Assembly (NCBI RefSeq): GCF_001281265.1
Contig: NZ_JXDB01000016.1
Location: 1-32,511 of the forward strand
Source of the DNA: Apilactobacillus kunkeei DSM 12361 = ATCC 700308
Lineage (GTDB): Bacteria > Bacillota > Bacilli > Lactobacillales > Lactobacillaceae
Length of the DNA: 32,511 nucleotides
Direction: 5' to 3'
Position numbers and translations under genes: made by a program. Under the pieces are notes generated by a model. It made no database searches. It was not told the origin of the DNA and saw only the letters and a program-made list of their open reading frames with translations. Shown in pieces: positions 13,521 to 28,223 of this stretch. Positions within the stretch are counted from its first letter, which is position 1, and the number at the start of each line of letters is the position of its first letter.

Positions 13521-14255
13521 TTAAATCATTTTACTTAAAAAACGTTGGGCGTTAGGGGTTTTTGGATTTTCGAAAAAGTCTTTAGGTGCTTGTTTTTCTT
13601 GAATCTTTCCTTCATCCATAAACCAAATTTCATCTGAAACATTCTTAGCGAATTCCATTTCATGGGTAACAATAATCATTGTCATGTCTTTCTTAGCTAA
13701 ATCTTGCATAACACTAAGTACTTCACCAACTTTTTCAGGATCTAGTGCTGAAGTTGGTTCGTCAAATAGAATTACCTCAGGATCCATGGCTAGCGCACGG
13801 ACGATTGCGATACGTTGAGCTTGCCCACCTGATAGGCTGTCTGGGTATACGTTTGCCTTATCATCTAGACCAACTGTTTTAAGCAGTTCATGTGCTTTTT
13901 CTTCCGCACCTTCCTTGCTCATCCCCTTAACCTTAATGGGTGCTAGTGTGATGTTATCGATAACTGTCTTGTTTTCAAACAAGTTAAAGCTTTGGAACAC
14001 CATTCCGATGTGGGTTCTTAATTGAATTAGTTCCTTTTCAGAGCTGCTTACTAGGTCTTTTCCATCCAATAGAATCTTTCCAGAAGTTGGTTCACCCAGC
14101 ATGTTAATGCAACGAAGGAAAGTACTCTTACCGGCACCAGAAGGACCTAAAAGTGAGATTACTTCACCCTTGTGGACTTCAGCGTTGATGTCAGAAAAGA
14201 TGGTATTATTTTTGAATTTTTTGGTTAATTTTTCAATTTTAATCATTGGTTCCAT
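13521..14255 (-). CDS. polar amino acid ABC transporter ATPase
   Basis: A 244-residue ATPase of the GlnQ/HisP class, with Walker A GPSGAGKS (37-44), Q-loop Gln88, signature LSGGQAQR (141-148), Walker B VILFDEP (161-167) and switch His about 198. It drives uptake through the SBP-permease fusion just upstream, overlapping it by 17 nt. As the last gene of an arginine T-box-controlled operon, the substrate is probably arginine or its precursor citrulline; this rests on context, since GlnQ-type ATPases serve many amino acids. Confidence 0.93.
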   Translation of the reverse strand: MEPMIKIEKLTKKFKNNTIFSDINAEVHKGEVISLLGPSGAGKSTFLRCINMLGEPTSGKILLDGKDLVSSSEKELIQLRTHIGMVFQSFNLFENKTVIDNITLAPIKVKGMSKEGAEEKAHELLKTVGLDDKANVYPDSLSGGQAQRIAIVRALAMDPEVILFDEPTSALDPEKVGEVLSVMQDLAKKDMTMIIVTHEMEFAKNVSDEIWFMDEGKIQEKQAPKDFFENPKTPNAQRFLSKMI

Positions 14256-15729
14256 GGCTAATCTTCCCTTCTAAGTGTTTCATGATTCTAGAAATTGTAA
14301 ATGTGATTACGAAGTAAATGACCATAATGACAGCGATTGGTGCGACACCTAGATAAGTATCAGCTTGAACAGCTCTCATTTGATACATTAGTTCTCCAAC
14401 CCCAATTACGGATGCTAGTGAACTATCCTTGATCAAGGTTACTAATTCGTTACCAAGTGCAGGCCAGATGTTCTTGAAGGCTTGTGGTAACACAATGTAT
14501 TGCATCGATTGTTTCTTGGATAGGCCAAGTGATAATGCGGCTTCGCTTTGACCATCAGAGATAGAATTAATTCCCCCTCTAATGATTTCGGCGACGTAGG
14601 CTCCAGAATTAATGGAAATAGCGATAATTCCTGAAGTTAAGGCTGGAACGTTAACGATGGTACCTAGACCAAAGTAGATAAACATAATTTGTACTAATTG
14701 AGGTGTTCCACGAATGAATTCGATGTAGCAAACGGAGATTGAGTGTAGTAGCCAGTTGTGACTTAATCTCATTAGCGCAAAGATAATTCCTAAGATGATA
14801 CCGAAGAATACTGATACCACTGAAATGATCATTGTGTATTCGATACCTGAGATAAAGAAGTTCTTGTATTGCCACATTGTTTCAAATTGTGATTGTGACT
14901 TGTTGTTAGTGATGTGTTTTGCAGCTGCTGGAACAAATTTCTTGGTGTATAGGTTATCTTTGTTAACCTTATCAATTGTCTTGTTAGCAGCGTTTTCTAG
15001 ACTAGTAGCACCCTTGAAGAAGGCAATCTTGTTTGAGCTTTCTTGACCAGGCATCTTAGCGTCAATAATCTTTAGTCCTGGGTTGTGGGCTGCGTATGCT
15101 TGCGCTACAGCAGTATCTAGCGGAATGGCTGCGATTTTTCCTGACTTCAAAGCAAGAATTAAATCGTTGATGTTTTCCATTCCCTTTAGGTTAATGTTCT
15201 TGATACCCTTCTTCACAGCGTCATATTGTACTGATCCAATTTGAGCACCGATGGTCTTTCCTTGTAAGTCCTTGTATGACTTAATTTTCTTGTCATCGGA
15301 AGTGTTTAATACCAAACTCAATCCAGATGAGTAGTAAGTCTTACTGAAGTCGACACTCTTGGCTCTTTCAGGAGTTTCGTTCATCCCTGCAATAACCATA
15401 TCAACCTTTTTGGTTTGAAGCGCAACTAGTAGTGAGTCAAATCCCATTGATTTAACCTTTAGTTTTACTCCTAAGTCTTTGGCGATGGCCTTACCTAATT
15501 CGATATCGGCACCGTAGACCTTTGAACCACCGTTATCTTTTCCAATAAATTCGTATGGAGGATAATCTGGGGCGGTTCCCATTACGATGTATCCTTTTTG
15601 CTTAATTTGTTGTAGTGAGTTATCGGAAGCTGATGCTTGAACACTTGGAACAGTGAATGCTGTCACGAATAGTGTTGCAATCATTAGCAACATGGTAATT
15701 AACACGGAATGTTTCATTTTATTCTTCAT
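14239..15729 (-). CDS. fused substrate-binding protein and permease, amino acid ABC importer
   Basis: A 496-residue fusion. Signal peptide/anchor at 1-33 (hydrophobic [19 protein letters not shown], then VQASA). An extracellular type 3 solute-binding domain (about 40-270) carries the typical [16 protein letters not shown] and [20 protein letters not shown] motifs. A HisM-type permease follows (about 290-490), with the inner-membrane signature [21 protein letters not shown]. Both domains look complete, giving a tethered receptor as in lactic acid bacterial GlnP. Start at 15729 overlaps argH by 11 nt with GGGAG nine bases before. Probable arginine/citrulline importer from operon context. Confidence 0.93.
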
Positions 15730-17116
15730 GATTCATTTCTCCCTTTAGTTTTTCTTTCGCTTTTTCAATCTGTTTATGGACTTCATTAAAACCGGTTGAC
15801 CCATAACTCTTTCTTCTTTGAATTGCGACGTGTGGTTTCAAATCTTCATAGATGTCTTCTTCAAACAAGTCTGAATAGTTATGTAGTTGTTCTAATGATA
15901 AATCCTGTAAGTAACAATTTTCGTTTATGCATTTAGCGACTAATTCACCGGCGATACGATGAGATTGTCTAAATGGTAATCCTTTGGCTGATAGGTAATC
16001 AGCTAATTCAGTTGCGTTGGAAAAATCCTTTTCAACCGCTTGTAGCATCAGGTCTTTATTGACCTGCATTGTCGCAATCATTTCGGTCATTAATTGTAGG
16101 ATTGGTTCGATGTTTTCGACTGTGTCAAACACCCCAGCCTTATCTTCTTGTAGATCCTTATTATATGCCAGTGGCAATGATTTCATTGTTGCTAATAAGG
16201 CGTTTAGGTGACCGTATACTACGCCAGTTTTACCCCTAATTAGTTCACACATATCAGGGTTCTTCTTTTGTGGCATGATTGAGCTTCCAGTACTGAATGC
16301 ATCCGATAGTTCGACGTATTTGAATTCGTAGCTAGACCATAAGCAAATTTCTTCGCATAGTCTTGATAAGTGCATCATTAGAATAGAAGCATTGCTTAGA
16401 AATTCAATGGCGAAGTCCCTATCTGAGACTGCATCAATAGAATTATTGTAAGGTGAATCTAAGCCTAATTCGTTGGCGGTGAAGTGAGGATCGATTGGAA
16501 ACGTGGTTCCAGCTAAGGCAGCTGCACCAATTGGTGACATGTTGGTGTGCTTTTGGTTGAATTCGAACCTGTCGTAGTCACGGTCTAACATTTCGTAGTA
16601 GGCCATTAGGTAATGGGCAAATGAAATTGGTTGAGCGTGTTGTAAATGGGTATATCCTGGCATGATGGTTTCTAAATTTTCATCGGCTAGGTTAACCAAT
16701 TCACTTTGAAAACTCCTAATTAGTGCCATGATTTGTGGTAGACGTTTCTTTAGGTATAAATGAAAATCTAGTGCCACTTGATCGTTTCTTGAACGTGCTG
16801 TGTGAAGCTTTCCAGCGACCGATCCGATTTTTTCGGTTAGCACTGTTTCGACATTCATATGAATGTCTTCGTTTTGGTAACTAAAATGAAGTTTTCCTTC
16901 ATCGAACTCTTCTTTAATCTCTTTTAAACCATTCACGATTTGGTCTTTTTCGGTTTCTGTGATGATACCAACGTGGCTTAACATGGTAGCGTGAGCAATT
17001 GATCCCTCAATATCTTCGTTTGCCATCTTGATATCAACATTGATTGAGGCGCCGAGCCGCAAGAATAAATCGTTGGCGTCGCCGTTAAAACGACCGCCCC
17101 ATAGTTTCTCACTCAT
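15719..17116 (-). CDS. argH: argininosuccinate lyase
   Basis: About 465 residues; splits argininosuccinate into arginine and fumarate. N-terminal [10 protein letters not shown] and the fumarase-superfamily signature [14 protein letters not shown] (about 277-290) are present, as are the substrate segment [13 protein letters not shown] and the catalytic-His region [13 protein letters not shown]. The frame runs to a GTG at 17125, but ATG 17116 is preferred: AAGGTGA precedes it and it matches the family N-terminus. It overlaps the argG stop by 8 nt (ATGAGTGA), implying coupled translation. Third base use is like argG. Confidence 0.96.
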
Positions 17117-18410
17117 CAGATTCACCTTCTAACTTGTTTTCAACTAGCACCTTTTCCTTTGTTTGTGTCTTCATAACGTCTTTCATGAAGTTCTTTTGTA
17201 AGTTCTTTTGTTTTACTTGTGATGCTACTTGAGTAGGTAGTCCCCATAGTTTGATGAAACCAACTGAAGCATTTTGATCGAATGAATCGGCAGAGGTGTA
17301 AGTAGCTAAGTCTTCGTCGTATAGTGATTCTTCTGACTTAGAAGCGACTACGTAAACGTTACCCTTGAACAACTTCACTTTAACTGTTCCACTAACTGTA
17401 TCTTGTGATGATTGGATAAATGCCTTTAGTGACTTCATCAATGGTGAGAACCATAAACCGTTGTAAGTGAGATTAGCGATTTGTTGTTCAATCATTGGCT
17501 TGAAGTGAGCTAAATCTCTTTCCATAGTTAGATTTTCCATTGCCTTGTGGGCTTTTAGTAATACGGTAGCACCAGGCGCTTCGTATACTTCTCTGGATTT
17601 GATTCCTACTAAACGGTTTTCAATGTGATCGATACGACCGACACCGTGTTCGCCGGCTGCGATATTAACCTTTTGGATAACATCAACGAAGCTCATTTCA
17701 ACGCCGTTAACTGCGACTGGCTTACCTTGTTTAAAGGTGATGTCCATGAATTCTGGTTGGTCAGGAGTTTCTTCAATTGGTTTAGTAATATCGAAGGCGT
17801 CTTCTGGAGCTTGGTTCCATGGATTTTCTAGGACACCACATTCATTGGCACGTCCCCAGATATTTGCGTCGATTGAGTATGGAGAATCTAAATCAATTGG
17901 AATATCGATGTTATGTTTCTTAGCAAATTCGATTTCTTCTTCTCTGTTCCAGTGCCATTGACGAACTGGAGTAACCACTGTCAGTTTTGGATCTAGAGAA
18001 TGGATAGCGACATCGAAACGAACTTGGTCGTTTCCTTTACCAGTACATCCATGACAAATATATTCAGCACCTTCTTTATGAGCAATTTCAACTAATTTTT
18101 GACTCATTAAAGGACGAGATAGGGCTGAGCTCAATGGATATTCGCCTTCATACATAGCATTAGCATCCAATGCAGTTAATAGGAAATCTTCAGCGAATTC
18201 GTCTAATGCATCAACAACATATGACTTAACGGCACCTACTTTTAACGCCTTTTCTTTAATTTGATTTAAATCTTTATGTTCACCGTAGTCCTCTCCAACA
18301 TTAATGCAGCAGGCAATTACGTCAAAACCTTGTTCGATTAACCATGCAATTGAAACTGATGTATCTAATCCTCCGGAATATGCTAAAACGATTTTCTTTG
18401 ATTGTTTCAT
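17109..18410 (-). CDS. argG: argininosuccinate synthase
   Basis: About 433 residues; ligates citrulline and aspartate using ATP. The N-type pyrophosphatase motif [11 protein letters not shown] is at about 9-19, with [13 protein letters not shown] (about 117-129) and [13 protein letters not shown] (about 177-189). The frame has an ATG at 18419, but GGAGG abuts that codon; the ATG at 18410 lies 9 nt from GGAGG and fits the family start. First gene of a four-gene coupled operon controlled by three upstream T-boxes. The start region also contains a parS-like 16-mer (18403-18418). With ArgH it makes arginine from citrulline; no argF or carAB is nearby. Confidence 0.95.
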
Positions 18411-18418
18411 GTGAAACA
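18403..18418. promoter_or_regulatory. parS-like site at the argG start
   Basis: TGTTTCATGTGAAACA differs from the Bacillota parS form TGTTTCACGTGAAACA by one central base. The reverse complement is identical to the 16-mer at 28208-28223. Located within 15 kb of oriC, where ParB/Spo0J loads. It overlaps the argG initiation region. Confidence 0.65.
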
Positions 18419-18419
18419 T

Positions 18420-18666
18420 CCTCCTTTTTTGTATATAAACAATGAAATTTTTATTTCAACAGAGGACGATGTAACCGCGGTACCACCTCACTTCCTAACA
18501 TCCTCGCGAATGCTAGCTCATAAAGTCAATGACTTCCGCGTTAACGCCGCCAACGTTTGCTTCTACTCATTTCGAAGCTCATTCATAAGTACGATTAATC
18601 AAATGTCATTATTAACTCTCATCAACGTTATTTTCTCTGTAAATGATTGGTTTGATTAAATTCTTG
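18420..18666 (-). promoter_or_regulatory. T-box riboswitch 3 (argG-proximal), CGU specifier, translational type
   Basis: Read on the - strand: AG-bulge ACAGAGA, apical GATGAGAG, specifier AATCGTAC with CGU at 18593-18591, hairpin GCTTC/GAAGC around GAAATGAGTA, a stem III with GCGA loop, and T-box AGGTGGTACCGCG (18488-18476). Unlike copies 1 and 2 there is no GC-rich terminator with a U run. The segment CGTCCTCT can pair with GGAGGATG at the argG ribosome site (8 bp including two G-U pairs), mutually exclusive with the T-box antiterminator/antisequestrator. This predicts control of translation by uncharged tRNA-Arg. Confidence 0.88.
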
Positions 18667-18689
18667 ATCATCATGCAAATATTTATATA

Positions 18690-18927
18690 AAAAAAGTCCC
18701 CTAGGAATAAATCCTAGAGGACGACTAATCGTGGTTCCACCTCAGTTTCTGATGCTCTCACAAACATCAGCTCATAAAGTTTTTTCAAACTTTAACGATA
18801 ACGCGTTAACGGTGAATTCTACTCATTTCGAATTCAAACTCATAGGTACGATTTAATTAATGTCATCCTTAGCTCTCACCCGGCTTTGCTAAGTTCTCTG
18901 TAAATAACTGAATTAATTAAAATTCCT
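18690..18927 (-). promoter_or_regulatory. T-box riboswitch 2, CGU specifier, with terminator
   Basis: Leftward leader with ACAGAGA bulge, specifier AAATCGTACC (CGU at 18850-18848), hairpin GAATTC/GAATTC around GAAATGAGTA, stem III CTGATGTTT-GTGA-GAGCATCAG, and T-box AGGTGGAACCACG (18742-18730; one base off the usual ACCGCG). Terminator stem GTCCTCTAGGA/TCCTAGGGGAC, followed by T7, occupies 18722-18690 and overlaps the CGTCCTC antiterminator strand. Uncharged tRNA-Arg should permit readthrough to the third T-box. Confidence 0.93.
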
Positions 18928-18964
18928 AATCACTGTTTTTAAAATTAATATTTATTTTGGGTAT

Positions 18965-19197
18965 AAAAAAATCCTCTTGGATAAGATATCCAAGAGGACG
19001 AATAAATCGCGGTGCCACCTCAATTCCTAGCATTCTCACGAATACTAGCTCGAGAAGTTATAATAACTTCAGCGTTAACGCCGCCAACGATTTTTTCTAC
19101 TCATTTCGAAAAATGACTCTCAGGTACGATTCAATTACCGTGCTACCCACTCTCATAACCGTGGACTCCCTGTGAAACACTCAATAATTAAAATTCC
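18965..19197 (-). promoter_or_regulatory. T-box riboswitch 1 (promoter-proximal), CGU specifier, with terminator
   Basis: Leftward leader: AGGGAG bulge, apical GGTTATGAGAG, specifier TGAATCGTACC (CGU at 19128-19126), hairpin TTTTTC/GAAAAA around GAAATGAGTA, stem III CTAGTATTC-GTGA-GAATGCTAG, T-box AGGTGGCACCGCG (19020-19008). The terminator is CCTCTTGGAT/ATCCAAGAGG (18997-18973) with T7. All canonical elements are present. It is the first checkpoint on the arg operon transcript. Confidence 0.94.
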
Positions 19198-19225
19198 TGT
19201 TCAACGTCTTATTTGATTGTCACTT

Positions 19226-19264: not shown

Positions 19265-20590
19265 TTATTCTAATGAATCCCAAGGTGCTAATTCTACCGG
19301 GGATTGGCTCAACAGTGCGATTTTATCATTAGATAAATATTTTTTATTTATTACGATTTCATATACATATTCGTTCATCCAACCATCATCCATGATGAAA
19401 TATCCGTTAACACCATTCTTTGATCCCCATGAATTTTCCACTTTCCATTTAGTTGGTTTATCATCGACTAAATCGACACCGGTTAATGCAGTGGCGTGTG
19501 AAACGTTAGCTTCATGGTATTGTAGACGTTCTTTTTTGCTCATTGATAAATCAACGTCAAAAAGTTCGTCGTAATGGTATAGGTTTTCAGCTAGGAAGCC
19601 TTTTTTTCGGTCAGATTGACGCGCAATGTCGTTAGCGAACCAAACAGCTTGACCGTCCTTTAATTGTGCAATTGCGACATTTTTTAGGTCTTCCATTGGT
19701 AGGTTCAAGAATTCAATCTTTCTACCATCAACCACGTTTTCTTGGGCTGATAATCGATACATCTTGTCGTATTCCTTGTCAGGAGAGTTACTTAGGACAA
19801 CGTAATCGTCTAAATCAGCATCCGATAGGTACTTTTCATAGAATGCCTTAGGGGTTAAATCACGATCAATGTGGTAGTTGTCGTTATCATCCCTATATTC
19901 AAAGTCAAAAGTTTTTGGAGGCACGCCAAGTGAGTACGCAGCAATCTTGTAAACTTCGGCCAGCATTTGTTCTCTAGCGTCATGGATGTCTTCCTCAGAC
20001 ACGCCGTCTTTTACCATGTTACGTAGCTTGAACGCATCGTTTCTTAGTTTGTAATTCAAAATTGCTTTCAAATCACCGGTACTTTCGGAAACGTTGGTTT
20101 CACTAAACGCAGTGGTTGGCACAACCCCGTATTTTTGAACTAATGCTACGGCCATTGCCCATTGACCACCGTCGGCACCTGGTCCCACTTCTAGGAAGTA
20201 TTGAACGGTTCGGTCATCTAGTGGTTTGTCAGCAGTGTTTACGATGCGGTCGTAAAAGATGTTAGCACGTTCAATCTTATCCCAGAAGAATAGATAGTTT
20301 TGTGATAATTCGAAGTCTTTGACGTTGTACTTAGCGCCAAATTGGTGCTTTAAGGTGTTTAATAACGCAAACATCCAGCAACGACCGGATTGTTTTTGGT
20401 TGGACACCTTACCAGTCTTCACTTCAACAAAAAAGACGGGATTTAATTTTTCAGTGGCTGTCTCATCGTATGAAACATTGCCAATTCCATTTTGTGTTAC
20501 GGTTCTTTCCAAAATCGCATTGGTAGGATTTTTTTCGTAGGCCGCACGTAATTCTTTTAGATCTTGTTCGGTAATTTTTGTTTCAGTCAT
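19265..20590 (-). CDS. pepC: aminopeptidase C, copy 1 (bleomycin hydrolase family)
   Basis: A 441-residue cytosolic cysteine aminopeptidase (C1B) that releases N-terminal residues from peptides. The catalytic triad is intact: Cys71 in QSGRCWMF, His365 in SHATALTG, Asn386 in VENSWG. Length equals the lactobacillar PepC standard. It lies 14 nt after a second pepC copy; the two align end to end, so this is a tandem duplication that has diverged. AAGGAGG precedes the ATG. No terminator is seen after it, before the arg T-box leaders. Confidence 0.94.
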   Translation of the reverse strand: MTETKITEQDLKELRAAYEKNPTNAILERTVTQNGIGNVSYDETATEKLNPVFFVEVKTGKVSNQKQSGRCWMFALLNTLKHQFGAKYNVKDFELSQNYLFFWDKIERANIFYDRIVNTADKPLDDRTVQYFLEVGPGADGGQWAMAVALVQKYGVVPTTAFSETNVSESTGDLKAILNYKLRNDAFKLRNMVKDGVSEEDIHDAREQMLAEVYKIAAYSLGVPPKTFDFEYRDDNDNYHIDRDLTPKAFYEKYLSDADLDDYVVLSNSPDKEYDKMYRLSAQENVVDGRKIEFLNLPMEDLKNVAIAQLKDGQAVWFANDIARQSDRKKGFLAENLYHYDELFDVDLSMSKKERLQYHEANVSHATALTGVDLVDDKPTKWKVENSWGSKNGVNGYFIMDDGWMNEYVYEIVINKKYLSNDKIALLSQSPVELAPWDSLE

Positions 20591-20604: not shown

Positions 20605-21921
20605 TTATACCGCTGCCCAAGGGTCTAAATCGACTGGGGTTTGTGCTAGTAATTGTCTTTGTGAATCGGTTAGGTACTTCTTGTTGACGATCACTTCGAA
20701 GACGTTATTGTCCATCCAGTTATCGGCCATTACGAAGTAACCCTTTTCGCCGACCTTTTCACCCCATGAGTTTTCGACCTTCCACTTAGTTGGTTTGTCG
20801 TCGACAATGTCGACACCAGTAAGTGTCATCGCGTGGTTAGGAATGTTGTCGTAGTAATCCAAGCGTTGGGCCTTGTCCATGTTCATGTCGATATCAAACA
20901 ATTCAGCACGGCGGTATAAATCGTCGTCTAAAAGACCGTTTTGGCGGTCTGATTGTTCGGTCACGGTGTTGGCAAACCAGACAGTTTCGCCATCCTTTAA
21001 TTGCGCAATCGCCGCATCCTTTAACACGTCCATTGACATGTTTAAGAATTCAACTTGGCGACCACCAACGACGTTTTGACCGGCCTTGTTACGGAATAAT
21101 TGTTCCATTTTACGGTTAGGATAATTACCTAAAACAACGTAATCATCTAAATCAATTTCGAAGTATTTATCGAAGAATTGTTTAGGTGTGATGTCTGCAT
21201 CTACATGGTAGTTTTGCTTGTCATCACGGTATTCAAAGGTAAATGTTTCACGTGGAACACCACACGCGAAACCAGCGATTTTGTAAACTTCTTTTAGCAT
21301 TTCCTTACGTTTTTCAGCAATCTCGGCATCACTATTTCCGGCATGAATCATGTCACGTAATACCATTGCGTCACGACGTAACTTACGGTTCAATACTTCC
21401 TTTAAATCAGATGTATCTTCGGTTACGTTGCTTTCAGGAAAGGCTGAAGTTGGCATTACACCGTACTTTTGAACTAGTGCAACGGCCATCCCCCATTCAC
21501 CACCATCTGCACCCGGTGCAGCTAAGTAGCAGCGAAGTTCGCGATTATCGAAAGGCTTATCAGCAGTATCGATAATGCGATCGTAAAAGATGTTGGCACG
21601 TTCTACCTTATCCCAGAAAAATAGGTAGCTTTGTGATAGTTCAAAGTCTTTTACGTCGTAGCGTTTCGCAAAGTCGTGTTTTAAAACATTTAACAATGAG
21701 AATAGCCAGCAACGTCCTGAACGTTTTTGGTTTGATACCTTACCAGTATCGATTTCTACAGAGTATGTGTGGTTTAATTTGGCCACTACTCGATTGTCTT
21801 TGGCGGTATTGTTTATGCCGTTTTTCATAACGGAACGTTGTAATACCTTATTTTTTGGATCACTGTCATATTTTTCGCGCATTGCGTCAAAGTCGGCCTG
21901 CGTTAACTTAGTATGAGCCAT
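20605..21921 (-). CDS. pepC: aminopeptidase C, copy 2 (bleomycin hydrolase family)
   Basis: A 438-residue paralogue of the adjacent gene with triad Cys71 (RSGRCWLF), His363 (NHAMTLTG) and Asn384 (VENSWG). Both copies keep the same C-terminal tail pattern (PV.L.PW), which in this family reaches into the active-site channel and sets aminopeptidase specificity. It is 23 nt downstream of an aminotransferase-like gene, so the three probably share a transcript. The coding sequence contains a consensus parS site (21244-21259). Two active copies suggest different peptide preferences or a dosage effect; neither can be told from sequence. Confidence 0.94.
   Translation of the reverse strand: MAHTKLTQADFDAMREKYDSDPKNKVLQRSVMKNGINNTAKDNRVVAKLNHTYSVEIDTGKVSNQKRSGRCWLFSLLNVLKHDFAKRYDVKDFELSQSYLFFWDKVERANIFYDRIIDTADKPFDNRELRCYLAAPGADGGEWGMAVALVQKYGVMPTSAFPESNVTEDTSDLKEVLNRKLRRDAMVLRDMIHAGNSDAEIAEKRKEMLKEVYKIAGFACGVPRETFTFEYRDDKQNYHVDADITPKQFFDKYFEIDLDDYVVLGNYPNRKMEQLFRNKAGQNVVGGRQVEFLNMSMDVLKDAAIAQLKDGETVWFANTVTEQSDRQNGLLDDDLYRRAELFDIDMNMDKAQRLDYYDNIPNHAMTLTGVDIVDDKPTKWKVENSWGEKVGEKGYFVMADNWMDNNVFEVIVNKKYLTDSQRQLLAQTPVDLDPWAAV
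21244..21259. promoter_or_regulatory. parS site inside pepC copy 2
   Basis: TGTTTCACGTGGAACA matches the consensus TGTTNCACGTGNAACA completely. ParB/Spo0J sites of this form cluster around oriC in Bacillota; this one is about 11 kb from the DnaA boxes. Being inside a coding region is common for parS. Confidence 0.85.
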
Positions 21922-24238: not shown

Positions 24239-24267
24239 AGCGTTGAATTTAATTCAACGCTTTTTTA
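24239..24267. terminator. bidirectional terminator
   Basis: Stem GCGTTGAA/TTCAACGC with short AT loop, flanked by A6 and T6. It serves the secreted protein gene and the convergent signal peptidase gene, whose stop codon lies within it. Confidence 0.92.
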
Positions 24268-24884
24268 TTTTGTAAATCATTAATGTTGTAACGCTGTGTG
24301 GCATTTCCGGACCATGGGAATGAATACACAACTCCTAATACTTTTCTTTGTTCAACAAATCCCCAATAACGGCTGTCATTTGAGATTGATCGATTATCAC
24401 CTAAAACAAAGTACATCCCTTTAGGGACAATCTTTTCATCTTGGTCATCTACCCATTTTTCTCTGGATAACTTGGTAATATCCCAGTTCTTAATGACATC
24501 ATTTTGAAATTTGTAGCGTGTTCCCACGCCCACCTGTTGCTTACTAATATAGTTTTGCTTGTAGAGCTTGTTATTGATGTATAGCTTCCCGTTTTTATAA
24601 ACGATTTTATCGCCAGGCATCCCAACTACACGCTTTACGTAGTATGTAGTGGCGAATTTGGTAGGATCCTCGCCGAACGCGTCAAACACAATCACGCTAT
24701 TGCGTTTAATTTCTGCTTGTTTCATCACCAAGACTCGTTGTCCCGTATGTAAGTTGGGGTCCATCGAATGGCCATCAACCTTAACTACGGTCGCAAAACT
24801 CTTGATAGCAAACCAGGCCAGTACCAAGAATAACAGGTAGATAACCCATGATAATAAACTCTTTTGTTTTGCAGTTAATTTCAT
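24249..24884 (-). CDS. lepB: signal peptidase I, copy 1
   Basis: A 211-residue membrane protease that removes signal peptides from exported proteins. One N-terminal membrane helix (about 10-31) precedes the catalytic Ser40 in VDGHSMDPN. The Lys84 general base is in YYVKRVVGMPGD and the conserved GDNRSISNDSRYWG is at about 167-180. Single N-terminal helix is the Gram-positive type. It lies 15 nt after a near-identical-length paralogue and is probably co-transcribed with it. Confidence 0.94.
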   Translation of the reverse strand: MKLTAKQKSLLSWVIYLLFLVLAWFAIKSFATVVKVDGHSMDPNLHTGQRVLVMKQAEIKRNSVIVFDAFGEDPTKFATTYYVKRVVGMPGDKIVYKNGKLYINNKLYKQNYISKQQVGVGTRYKFQNDVIKNWDITKLSREKWVDDQDEKIVPKGMYFVLGDNRSISNDSRYWGFVEQRKVLGVVYSFPWSGNATQRYNINDLQNKKALN

Positions 24885-24899
24885 GGATTAAATTCCCCT

Positions 24900-25538
24900 C
24901 TACTTAGCTAGATCATTAACATTATAACGGTGCTTAGCAGTACCTGACCATGGGAATAACTTGGCTACTCCCAATACCTTAGATTTCTTTACGAATCCCC
25001 AGTAACGACTATCGTTTGAAATGCTTCTGTTATCACCTAATACAAAGTATTCACCCTTTGGTACTACCTTTGAATTTTGGTTGTATACCCATTTTGTGCT
25101 GGATAAACTTGAGATACTCCAGTTCTTAATTTGATTGTTAGTATCAAAGTATCTAGTACCAACATTTAGTTCCTTTTTACTAATAAAACTTTGGTCAGCG
25201 ACCTTATTATTAACGTATAATTTCCCATCTTTATATGAAACAGTATCACCTGGCAAACCAATAACACGCTTTACATAATAGTCCTTAGCAGTGGCATTAG
25301 GATCTTCTCCATGCGCGTCAAAAATGATGACACTATTACGTTTAATATCAGCTTGCTTTAATACCAACATCTTTTCTCCGTTGTATAGGTTTGGATCCAT
25401 CGAATGGCCATCAACGGTTGCCATCGTAAAGAAGTGGGCAATTGTTAAGTAAATACCTCCTAGTACAACTAAGTAAATTAGCCAACTAAGGCATTCTCTT
25501 AAAAAATTATTTTTTTTCTTTTTGGTAGAATTTTCCAT
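24900..25538 (-). CDS. lepB: signal peptidase I, copy 2
   Basis: A 212-residue paralogue with membrane helix about 17-38, Ser46 in VDGHSMDPN, Lys90 in YYVKRVIGLPGD, and GDNRSISNDSRYWG near the end. All catalytic residues are kept. Tandem copies share order and most core residues but differ in the linker 105-150, consistent with old duplication. ATG 25538 follows GGAGTAACAAAAA. Multiple type I peptidases are known in Gram-positives with heavy secretion; division of labour here is unknown. Confidence 0.94.
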   Translation of the reverse strand: MENSTKKKKNNFLRECLSWLIYLVVLGGIYLTIAHFFTMATVDGHSMDPNLYNGEKMLVLKQADIKRNSVIIFDAHGEDPNATAKDYYVKRVIGLPGDTVSYKDGKLYVNNKVADQSFISKKELNVGTRYFDTNNQIKNWSISSLSSTKWVYNQNSKVVPKGEYFVLGDNRSISNDSRYWGFVKKSKVLGVAKLFPWSGTAKHRYNVNDLAK

Positions 25539-28207: not shown

Positions 28208-28223
28208 TGTTTCACATGAAACA
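28208..28223. promoter_or_regulatory. parS-like site between mnmE and mnmG
   Basis: TGTTTCACATGAAACA differs by one central base from TGTTTCACGTGAAACA and is the exact reverse complement of the site at 18403-18418. It is about 4 kb from the DnaA-box cluster. Intergenic, in the short gap before mnmG. Confidence 0.7.

Follow-up and report, generated by a model that had tools for sequence, protein, structure and literature searches.

Three arginine T-boxes follow one another in the same orientation on the minus strand ahead of argG, and only the first two have intrinsic terminators competing with their antiterminators, the arrangement that defines transcriptional T-boxes. In unit 3, the antiterminator-type fold (antisequestrator) is predicted to compete instead with a helix that hides the argG Shine-Dalgarno sequence, as in translational T-boxes. 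The array therefore differs from a simple repetition of one regulatory unit, and it probably combines two transcriptional gates with one translational gate in a serial two-level switch responding to arginine starvation. The features concerned (Table 1) are located in the window, i.e., the whole stretch of 32,511 nucleotides of DNA from the bee-associated bacterium Apilactobacillus kunkeei that was analysed, which belongs to a genome of 1.52 Mb.

Table 1. Window coordinates of the T-box array and of the operon behind it
Feature	Position	Strand	Evidence and details
T-box unit 1 (Arg)	18991..19213	-	RF00230, 100.9 bits; specifier CGU 19128-19126; bulge UGGC 19017-19014
Unit 1 intrinsic terminator hairpin, then U run	18971..18999	-	-18.4 kcal/mol
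T-box unit 2 (Arg)	18714..18942	-	RF00230, 102.0 bits; specifier CGU 18850-18848; bulge UGGA 18739-18736
Unit 2 intrinsic terminator hairpin, then U run	18696..18722	-	-18.2 kcal/mol
T-box unit 3 (Arg)	18459..18680	-	RF00230, 89.3 bits, E 2.4e-20; specifier CGU 18593-18591; bulge UGGU 18485-18482; no terminator after it
Unit 3 antiterminator 3' arm CGUCCUCU, predicted anti-Shine-Dalgarno arm	18461..18468	-	Folding and comparison
GGAGGAUG, includes the argG Shine-Dalgarno; pairs with arm 18468-18461 in the predicted OFF fold	18417..18424	-	Folding and comparison
parS-like palindrome TGTTTCACATGAAACA, contains the argG start codon (18410-18408)	18403..18418	-	Palindrome search
argG, argininosuccinate synthase	17109..18410	-	NCBIfam above cut-off; start by Shine-Dalgarno spacing
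argH, argininosuccinate lyase, overlaps argG	15719..17116	-	NCBIfam above cut-off; start 17116 from ATGAGTGA overlap
ABC transporter, substrate-binding domain fused to permease	14239..15729	-	Permease model TIGR01726 above cut-off; substrate-naming models below theirs
ABC transporter ATPase	13521..14255	-	Amino-acid ABC ATPase models match strongly, with scores below the cut-off for each of the 25 shown

The T-boxes and their operon

The initial annotation had described three arginine T-boxes, each with CGU followed by A at the specifier position. The sequence and the matches to RF00230 place the T-box cores where it had put them, and alignment to the Rfam model returned this specifier in all three units, each of which covers the full model (positions 1-219). 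Its own refuting condition, a covariance model that does not call all three units, strictly applies to this genome at the gathering cut-off: relative to the RF00230 gathering score of 93 bits, units 1 and 2 are above and unit 3 is slightly below, and in seven related contigs 19 of the 21 units, including five of the seven third units, pass this score.

Pairing was compared across 43 units from 16 genomes of the genus with an anchored pattern that dropped none of them. The arms around the GAAATGAGTA loop, whose stem sits beside the GAA...AGUA motif, were paired in 100% of cells, compared with 67% after exchange of arms between unit positions; the corresponding values for stem III were 99.2% and 88%. 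These percentages count related sequences many times over. Two-sided changes were found at four of the five pairs of the loop stem (11 distinct arm pairs) and at eight of the nine pairs of stem III (28 distinct arm pairs). The stem changes listed in the initial annotation are present in the sequence. The pairing, together with the conservation of the units described below, supports the earlier proposal that the changes in the loop stem and the covariation of stem III reflect selection on the RNA.

The specifier matches tRNA-Arg(ACG), for which the genome has two genes, as well as the downstream argGH. This tRNA was found in 14 of the 16 genomes of the genus with 97-100% identity (not in G010 and G011), and all 14 copies readable by motif have A73. 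UGG is kept in the three bulges of the array, and the fourth base pairs with A73 solely in unit 3, not in unit 1 or unit 2. Across the genus this base is C in 25 of the 43 units, A in nine, and U in nine; in unit 3 it is U in all seven genomes of the kunkeei group and C in the five other three-unit genomes. The match between UGGU and A73 was given little weight, since units 1 and 2 mismatch A73 and so do other T-boxes of the genome, those read as His and Thr mismatching the discriminator base and two read as Gly matching it.

Behind the array, argG, argH, the transporter, and the ATPase follow in this order with overlapping reading frames. The T-boxes suggest that the transporter is specific for arginine. 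Searching the genome for ornithine carbamoyltransferase gave one match over the cut-off. Six genome records have an argG with 97%-99% identity to the one in the window; five bear Apilactobacillus names (A. kunkeei, A. nanyangensis, A. zhangqiuensis, and A. waqarii), and the sixth is from an uncultured Lactobacillus. The array had been described as standing in front of argGH, which is correct here but does not extend to the genus, where argG is present in eight of the 16 genomes, each with an argH-like frame alongside, between the array and the transporter. In the eight genomes without argG the array is directly ahead of the transporter, with a short ORF between them at most. Since the transporter orthologue lies behind the array in all 16 genomes, it is the common target.

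Several observations concern the region between the array and the transporter. One of the seven kunkeei-group genomes has an in-frame stop in argG (L066, G013:C21:4022-5320), and its argH behind is open. Loci L082 and L083 contain short similar ORFs, MIFINIFSLFKYTEIEKR and MFINIFNLFKYKEIEQR, after the third T-box and before the transporter, which by eye are possible leader peptides. At L081, a 30-codon ORF with five arginines follows the third T-box and, by eye, starts with MKQS and the palindrome like argG; it may be a leader peptide or what is left of a former argGH. In blastn, the L081 gap gave strong matches to T-box tails and the first bases of argG only.

The palindrome TGTTTCACATGAAACA over the argG start codon resembles parS. 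Three such sites occur in the window (18403-18418, 21244-21259, and 28208-28223), where 0.11 would be expected by chance, and parS-like sites were found in all 16 genomes of the genus. A ParB-type site over a start codon directly after a T-box array is odd. The presence of rnpA, yidC, mnmE, and mnmG suggests that the window is near the origin. Two tandem pairs of ORFs were also noted, C1-peptidase-like (19265-20590 and 20605-21921, the first with no NCBIfam match) and signal-peptidase-I-like (24249-24884 and 24900-25538); these names, like those of the four genes above, come from reading the ORFs.

Terminators and history of the array

A separate terminator scan found the same two terminators, two weak ones inside unit 1, and none after unit 3, giving four sites on the array stretch versus 0.5 expected; the initial annotation had missed that unit 3 lacks a terminator. 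Among the 27 T-boxes of the genome, 26 have a hairpin with a T-rich tail at -14.3 to -32.0 kcal/mol, although for two of them (rows 3 and 21) the best hairpin overlaps the T-box core and the energies are not clean terminator values; the sole exception is unit 3, with -1.8 kcal/mol. Across the 16 genomes of the genus, 36 of the 43 scored units have a terminator (-15.8 to -20.2 kcal/mol), while the second unit of G012, with a variant core, was outside the scoring and has a terminator visible in its sequence. The remaining seven are exactly the third units of the kunkeei group (G000, G004, G005, G007, G011, G013, and G015). The weak A/U hairpin that follows unit 3 in three of these seven genomes (-1.8 kcal/mol) and is absent in the other four was not counted as a terminator.

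Five genomes (G001, G003, G008, G010, and G014) have terminators on all three units; in G010, which also has argG, that of unit 3 is CGTCCTCTAGACATTAGTCTAGAGGAC followed by eight T. The terminator-less genomes form one clade in the transporter protein tree (98/95), consistent with one change in a trait that is not part of the tree data; in its neighbours G003, G010, and G001, the last unit is followed by a terminator. The loss of the unit 3 terminator is thus confined to one clade of the genus and looks derived and single.

Three units are present in 12 of the 16 genomes and two units in the other four (G002, G006, G009, and G012), which form one clade. In a tree of 43 units, from which the second unit of G012 was left out, the units grouped by position: unit 1 with 100/100, unit 2 with 98/79, and unit 3 of the 12 genomes with 95/88, the second unit of the two-unit arrays joining unit 3 weakly (82/29). 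Recent duplication with homogenisation was rejected, as the units cluster by position across genomes. The simplest reading of these sequences would be an ancestral triple array with one loss of the middle unit. The triple array is older than the loss of the unit 3 terminator. The exact triple-core pattern was found in 11 of 301 Lactobacillaceae genomes, all in the genus of the window (one of 40 genera), and this pattern, with its exact core and fixed spacing, may miss other triples. At seven argG loci from other genera (Bacillus, Enterococcus, and Leuconostoc), taken from 26 other matches to argG, no T-box scored as high as the gathering cut-off.

Predicted sequestrator and proposed two-level control

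The arm of unit 3, CGTCCTCT (18468-18461), and the segment GGAGGATG (18424-18417) are invariant in all seven kunkeei-group genomes and lie 35-36 bases apart. In the free fold of this region of the window, seven of the eight pairs between the arm and the Shine-Dalgarno sequence form, with the latter within the helix, and the four relatives with the same motif that were folded all gave a 5- to 7-pair version of this helix. The unit 3 region has an energy of -27.9 kcal/mol in the free fold, with the Shine-Dalgarno paired, versus -17.4 kcal/mol with the antiterminator forced; therefore, OFF would be the default state, and the other fold would depend on uncharged tRNA to hold it, as described for translational T-boxes (PMC7583486). 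The energy of the arm:Shine-Dalgarno duplex is -11.7 to -12.2 kcal/mol in the seven genomes versus -4.2 to -8.2 kcal/mol in eight others, with the Shine-Dalgarno of each genome chosen by motif (the one used for G008 and G014 belongs to a short ORF, and the motif gave none for G012). argG has the second-strongest duplex among 30 genes of the window, with another gene at -13.5, and the accessibility of the argG Shine-Dalgarno, 0.18, is the fourth lowest.

The complementarity between the arm and the Shine-Dalgarno is partly generic. It is partly built in, because an antiterminator arm ending in CCUC resembles an anti-Shine-Dalgarno, and in G003, where the terminator is present, eight pairs of complementarity are still found, although weaker (-8.1). 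The sequestrator helix provides no covariation, both arm and Shine-Dalgarno being invariant in the seven genomes, which are close relatives, and the last two bases of GGAGGAUG fall in the parS-like site, which has its own reason for conservation. A pattern search of 395 Lactobacillales genomes (T-box core, CGTCCTC arm, and GGAGGAYG 22-52 bases on) gave three matches, of which those in G318 and G555 have an intervening terminator, as read by eye, and that in the genome of the window alone does not; restricted to one arm sequence, this pattern is narrow and uninformative on other translational T-boxes. In other Lactobacillales families, L195 and L196 have a T-box with a terminator as well as GGAGGAYG complementary to the antiterminator arm, and these could be double-acting platforms.

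In the proposed mechanism, uncharged tRNA-Arg(ACG) would bind T-boxes 1 and 2, enabling RNA polymerase to pass both terminators, and on the finished mRNA T-box 3 would decide translation. Without uncharged tRNA, the arm CGUCCUCU would pair with the argG Shine-Dalgarno in GGAGGAUG and hide it; with uncharged tRNA, the arm would be taken into the antisequestrator, and the ribosome-binding site would be free. The two transcriptional gates would commit once, and the translational gate could be shut and opened again on mRNA already made. The frames of argG, argH, the transporter, and the ATPase overlap, so that shutting argG could reduce expression of all four genes through translational coupling. 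Given the architecture, gating would be serial provided that a single transcript runs through the three units. We infer this transcript, as well as tRNA binding, switching, and coupling. The predicted architecture would fit the layout of bi-mechanism tandem riboswitches, in which transcriptional units come first, a translational unit is last, and the ligand is the same. Our confidence in the two-level switch is moderate, because the complementarity is partly generic, the helix shares two bases with a parS-like site, covariation is absent, the promoter scan is uninformative, and the function is a predicted one. As to its origin, the balance tips slightly towards unit 3 being a full-length T-box that became translational, behind two terminating T-boxes, by a single terminator loss in the ancestor of the A. 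kunkeei group. The array would then be a caught example of a translational T-box arising from a transcriptional one, because the 3' arm of an antiterminator is by nature close to an anti-Shine-Dalgarno.

The absence of the unit 3 terminator in all seven genomes and the partly generic complementarity are also compatible with a unit that no longer has an expression platform and has ceased to regulate, remaining as a passive spacer while the two terminator units perform the regulation. This is unlikely in view of the conservation of unit 3. Among the seven kunkeei-group genomes, units 1, 2, and 3 have 22 of 219, 14 of 218, and 14 of 219 variable columns, respectively, compared with 55 variable positions at the 158 fourfold sites of argG; moreover, the specifier CGU of unit 3 is kept in all seven. 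A relic without a platform should drift, and unit 3, being conserved like unit 2, is not decaying. That unit 3 is a decayed copy was rejected on the same comparison.

T-box leaders can be processed, and the conservation of the aptamer without a terminator would agree with unit 3 binding tRNA and acting on RNA processing or stability, the bound leader being protected or cleaved, rather than on ribosome access. We consider this improbable, since the predicted default fold already occludes the Shine-Dalgarno and no further factor is therefore needed. Three equivalent transcriptional gates in series, the reading of the initial annotation, are suggested by the three complete T-boxes in line and by the five relatives with three terminators, but are very improbable here, being contradicted by the sequence of this and six other kunkeei-group genomes at unit 3; the shared specifier and the serial layout of that reading stand as architecture, and the equivalence of the units is not supported. 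Additive control from a separate promoter for each unit, compatible with the A/T-rich spacers and with the promoter scan, is the least probable, since promoter-like sites in the array region are no commoner than in shuffles (3 versus 3.2).

Comparison with known systems

Among Bacillota, triple T-boxes are already in print for thrS, for artQ-glnQ-artP operons, and for the trp operon in Streptococcus macedonicus (PMC12452182), so that the triple same-specifier array, reported at first as unusual, is unusual but not the first triple; it may be among the triple arrays of that paper. Like those, it consists of complete T-boxes in line ahead of an amino-acid operon, up to three being described there before amino-acid ABC transporter operons. 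Unlike those, its last unit has no terminator and has a predicted Shine-Dalgarno sequestrator, and argGH is located between the array and the transporter. The layout agrees with the working hypothesis of PMC12452182, according to which the first unit of a tandem acts on transcription and a later unit is free for either level. A 2020 review states that it is not yet known how tandem T-boxes act (PMC7583486).

In the literature searched, where subscription journals were thinly covered, no publication was found that describes three arginine T-boxes in a row in Apilactobacillus or a T-box array with mixed platforms, and the accessible text of PMC2494555 has no mention of either. Triple T-boxes and two-level tandem riboswitches are known singly; their combination within the T-box class was not found in this literature.

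Translational T-boxes are mostly actinobacterial (PMC1262725, PMC7583486), and the published ones mostly have a shorter stem I (PMC7583486). Like the ileS T-boxes of Actinobacteria, unit 3 has, here by prediction, an antiterminator-type fold in competition with a helix that covers the Shine-Dalgarno (PMC1262725, PMC7583486). It differs from them in being full-length, specific for Arg, found in a lactobacillus, and placed behind two transcriptional units, and the length of its stem I counts against the translational reading. The search for translational T-boxes in the T-box database TBDB was directed at Actinobacteria and at T-boxes with truncated stem I (PMC7778990); given this scope, a full-length translational T-box in a lactobacillus could be overlooked. 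The array points to a straightforward way in which translational T-boxes could arise from transcriptional ones. In related genomes the last unit has a terminator in some and a predicted sequestrator in others, so that a natural pair exists in which the effect of exchanging one platform is measurable. It also cautions that counts of T-boxes alone do not establish a "triple transcriptional AND gate."

Two-level tandem riboswitches have been published for SAM-II/SAM-V and some SAM-II doublets; no T-box pair was seen among the bi-mechanism entries in the accessible part of that work, in which not all tandems were checked for mechanism (PMC9481103). As in the SAM-II/SAM-V tandems, the first switch of the arginine array would end transcription and the last would govern ribosome access in response to the same ligand. 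The arginine array differs from the SAM tandems in its ligand, uncharged tRNA, which would switch expression on (PMC9481103).
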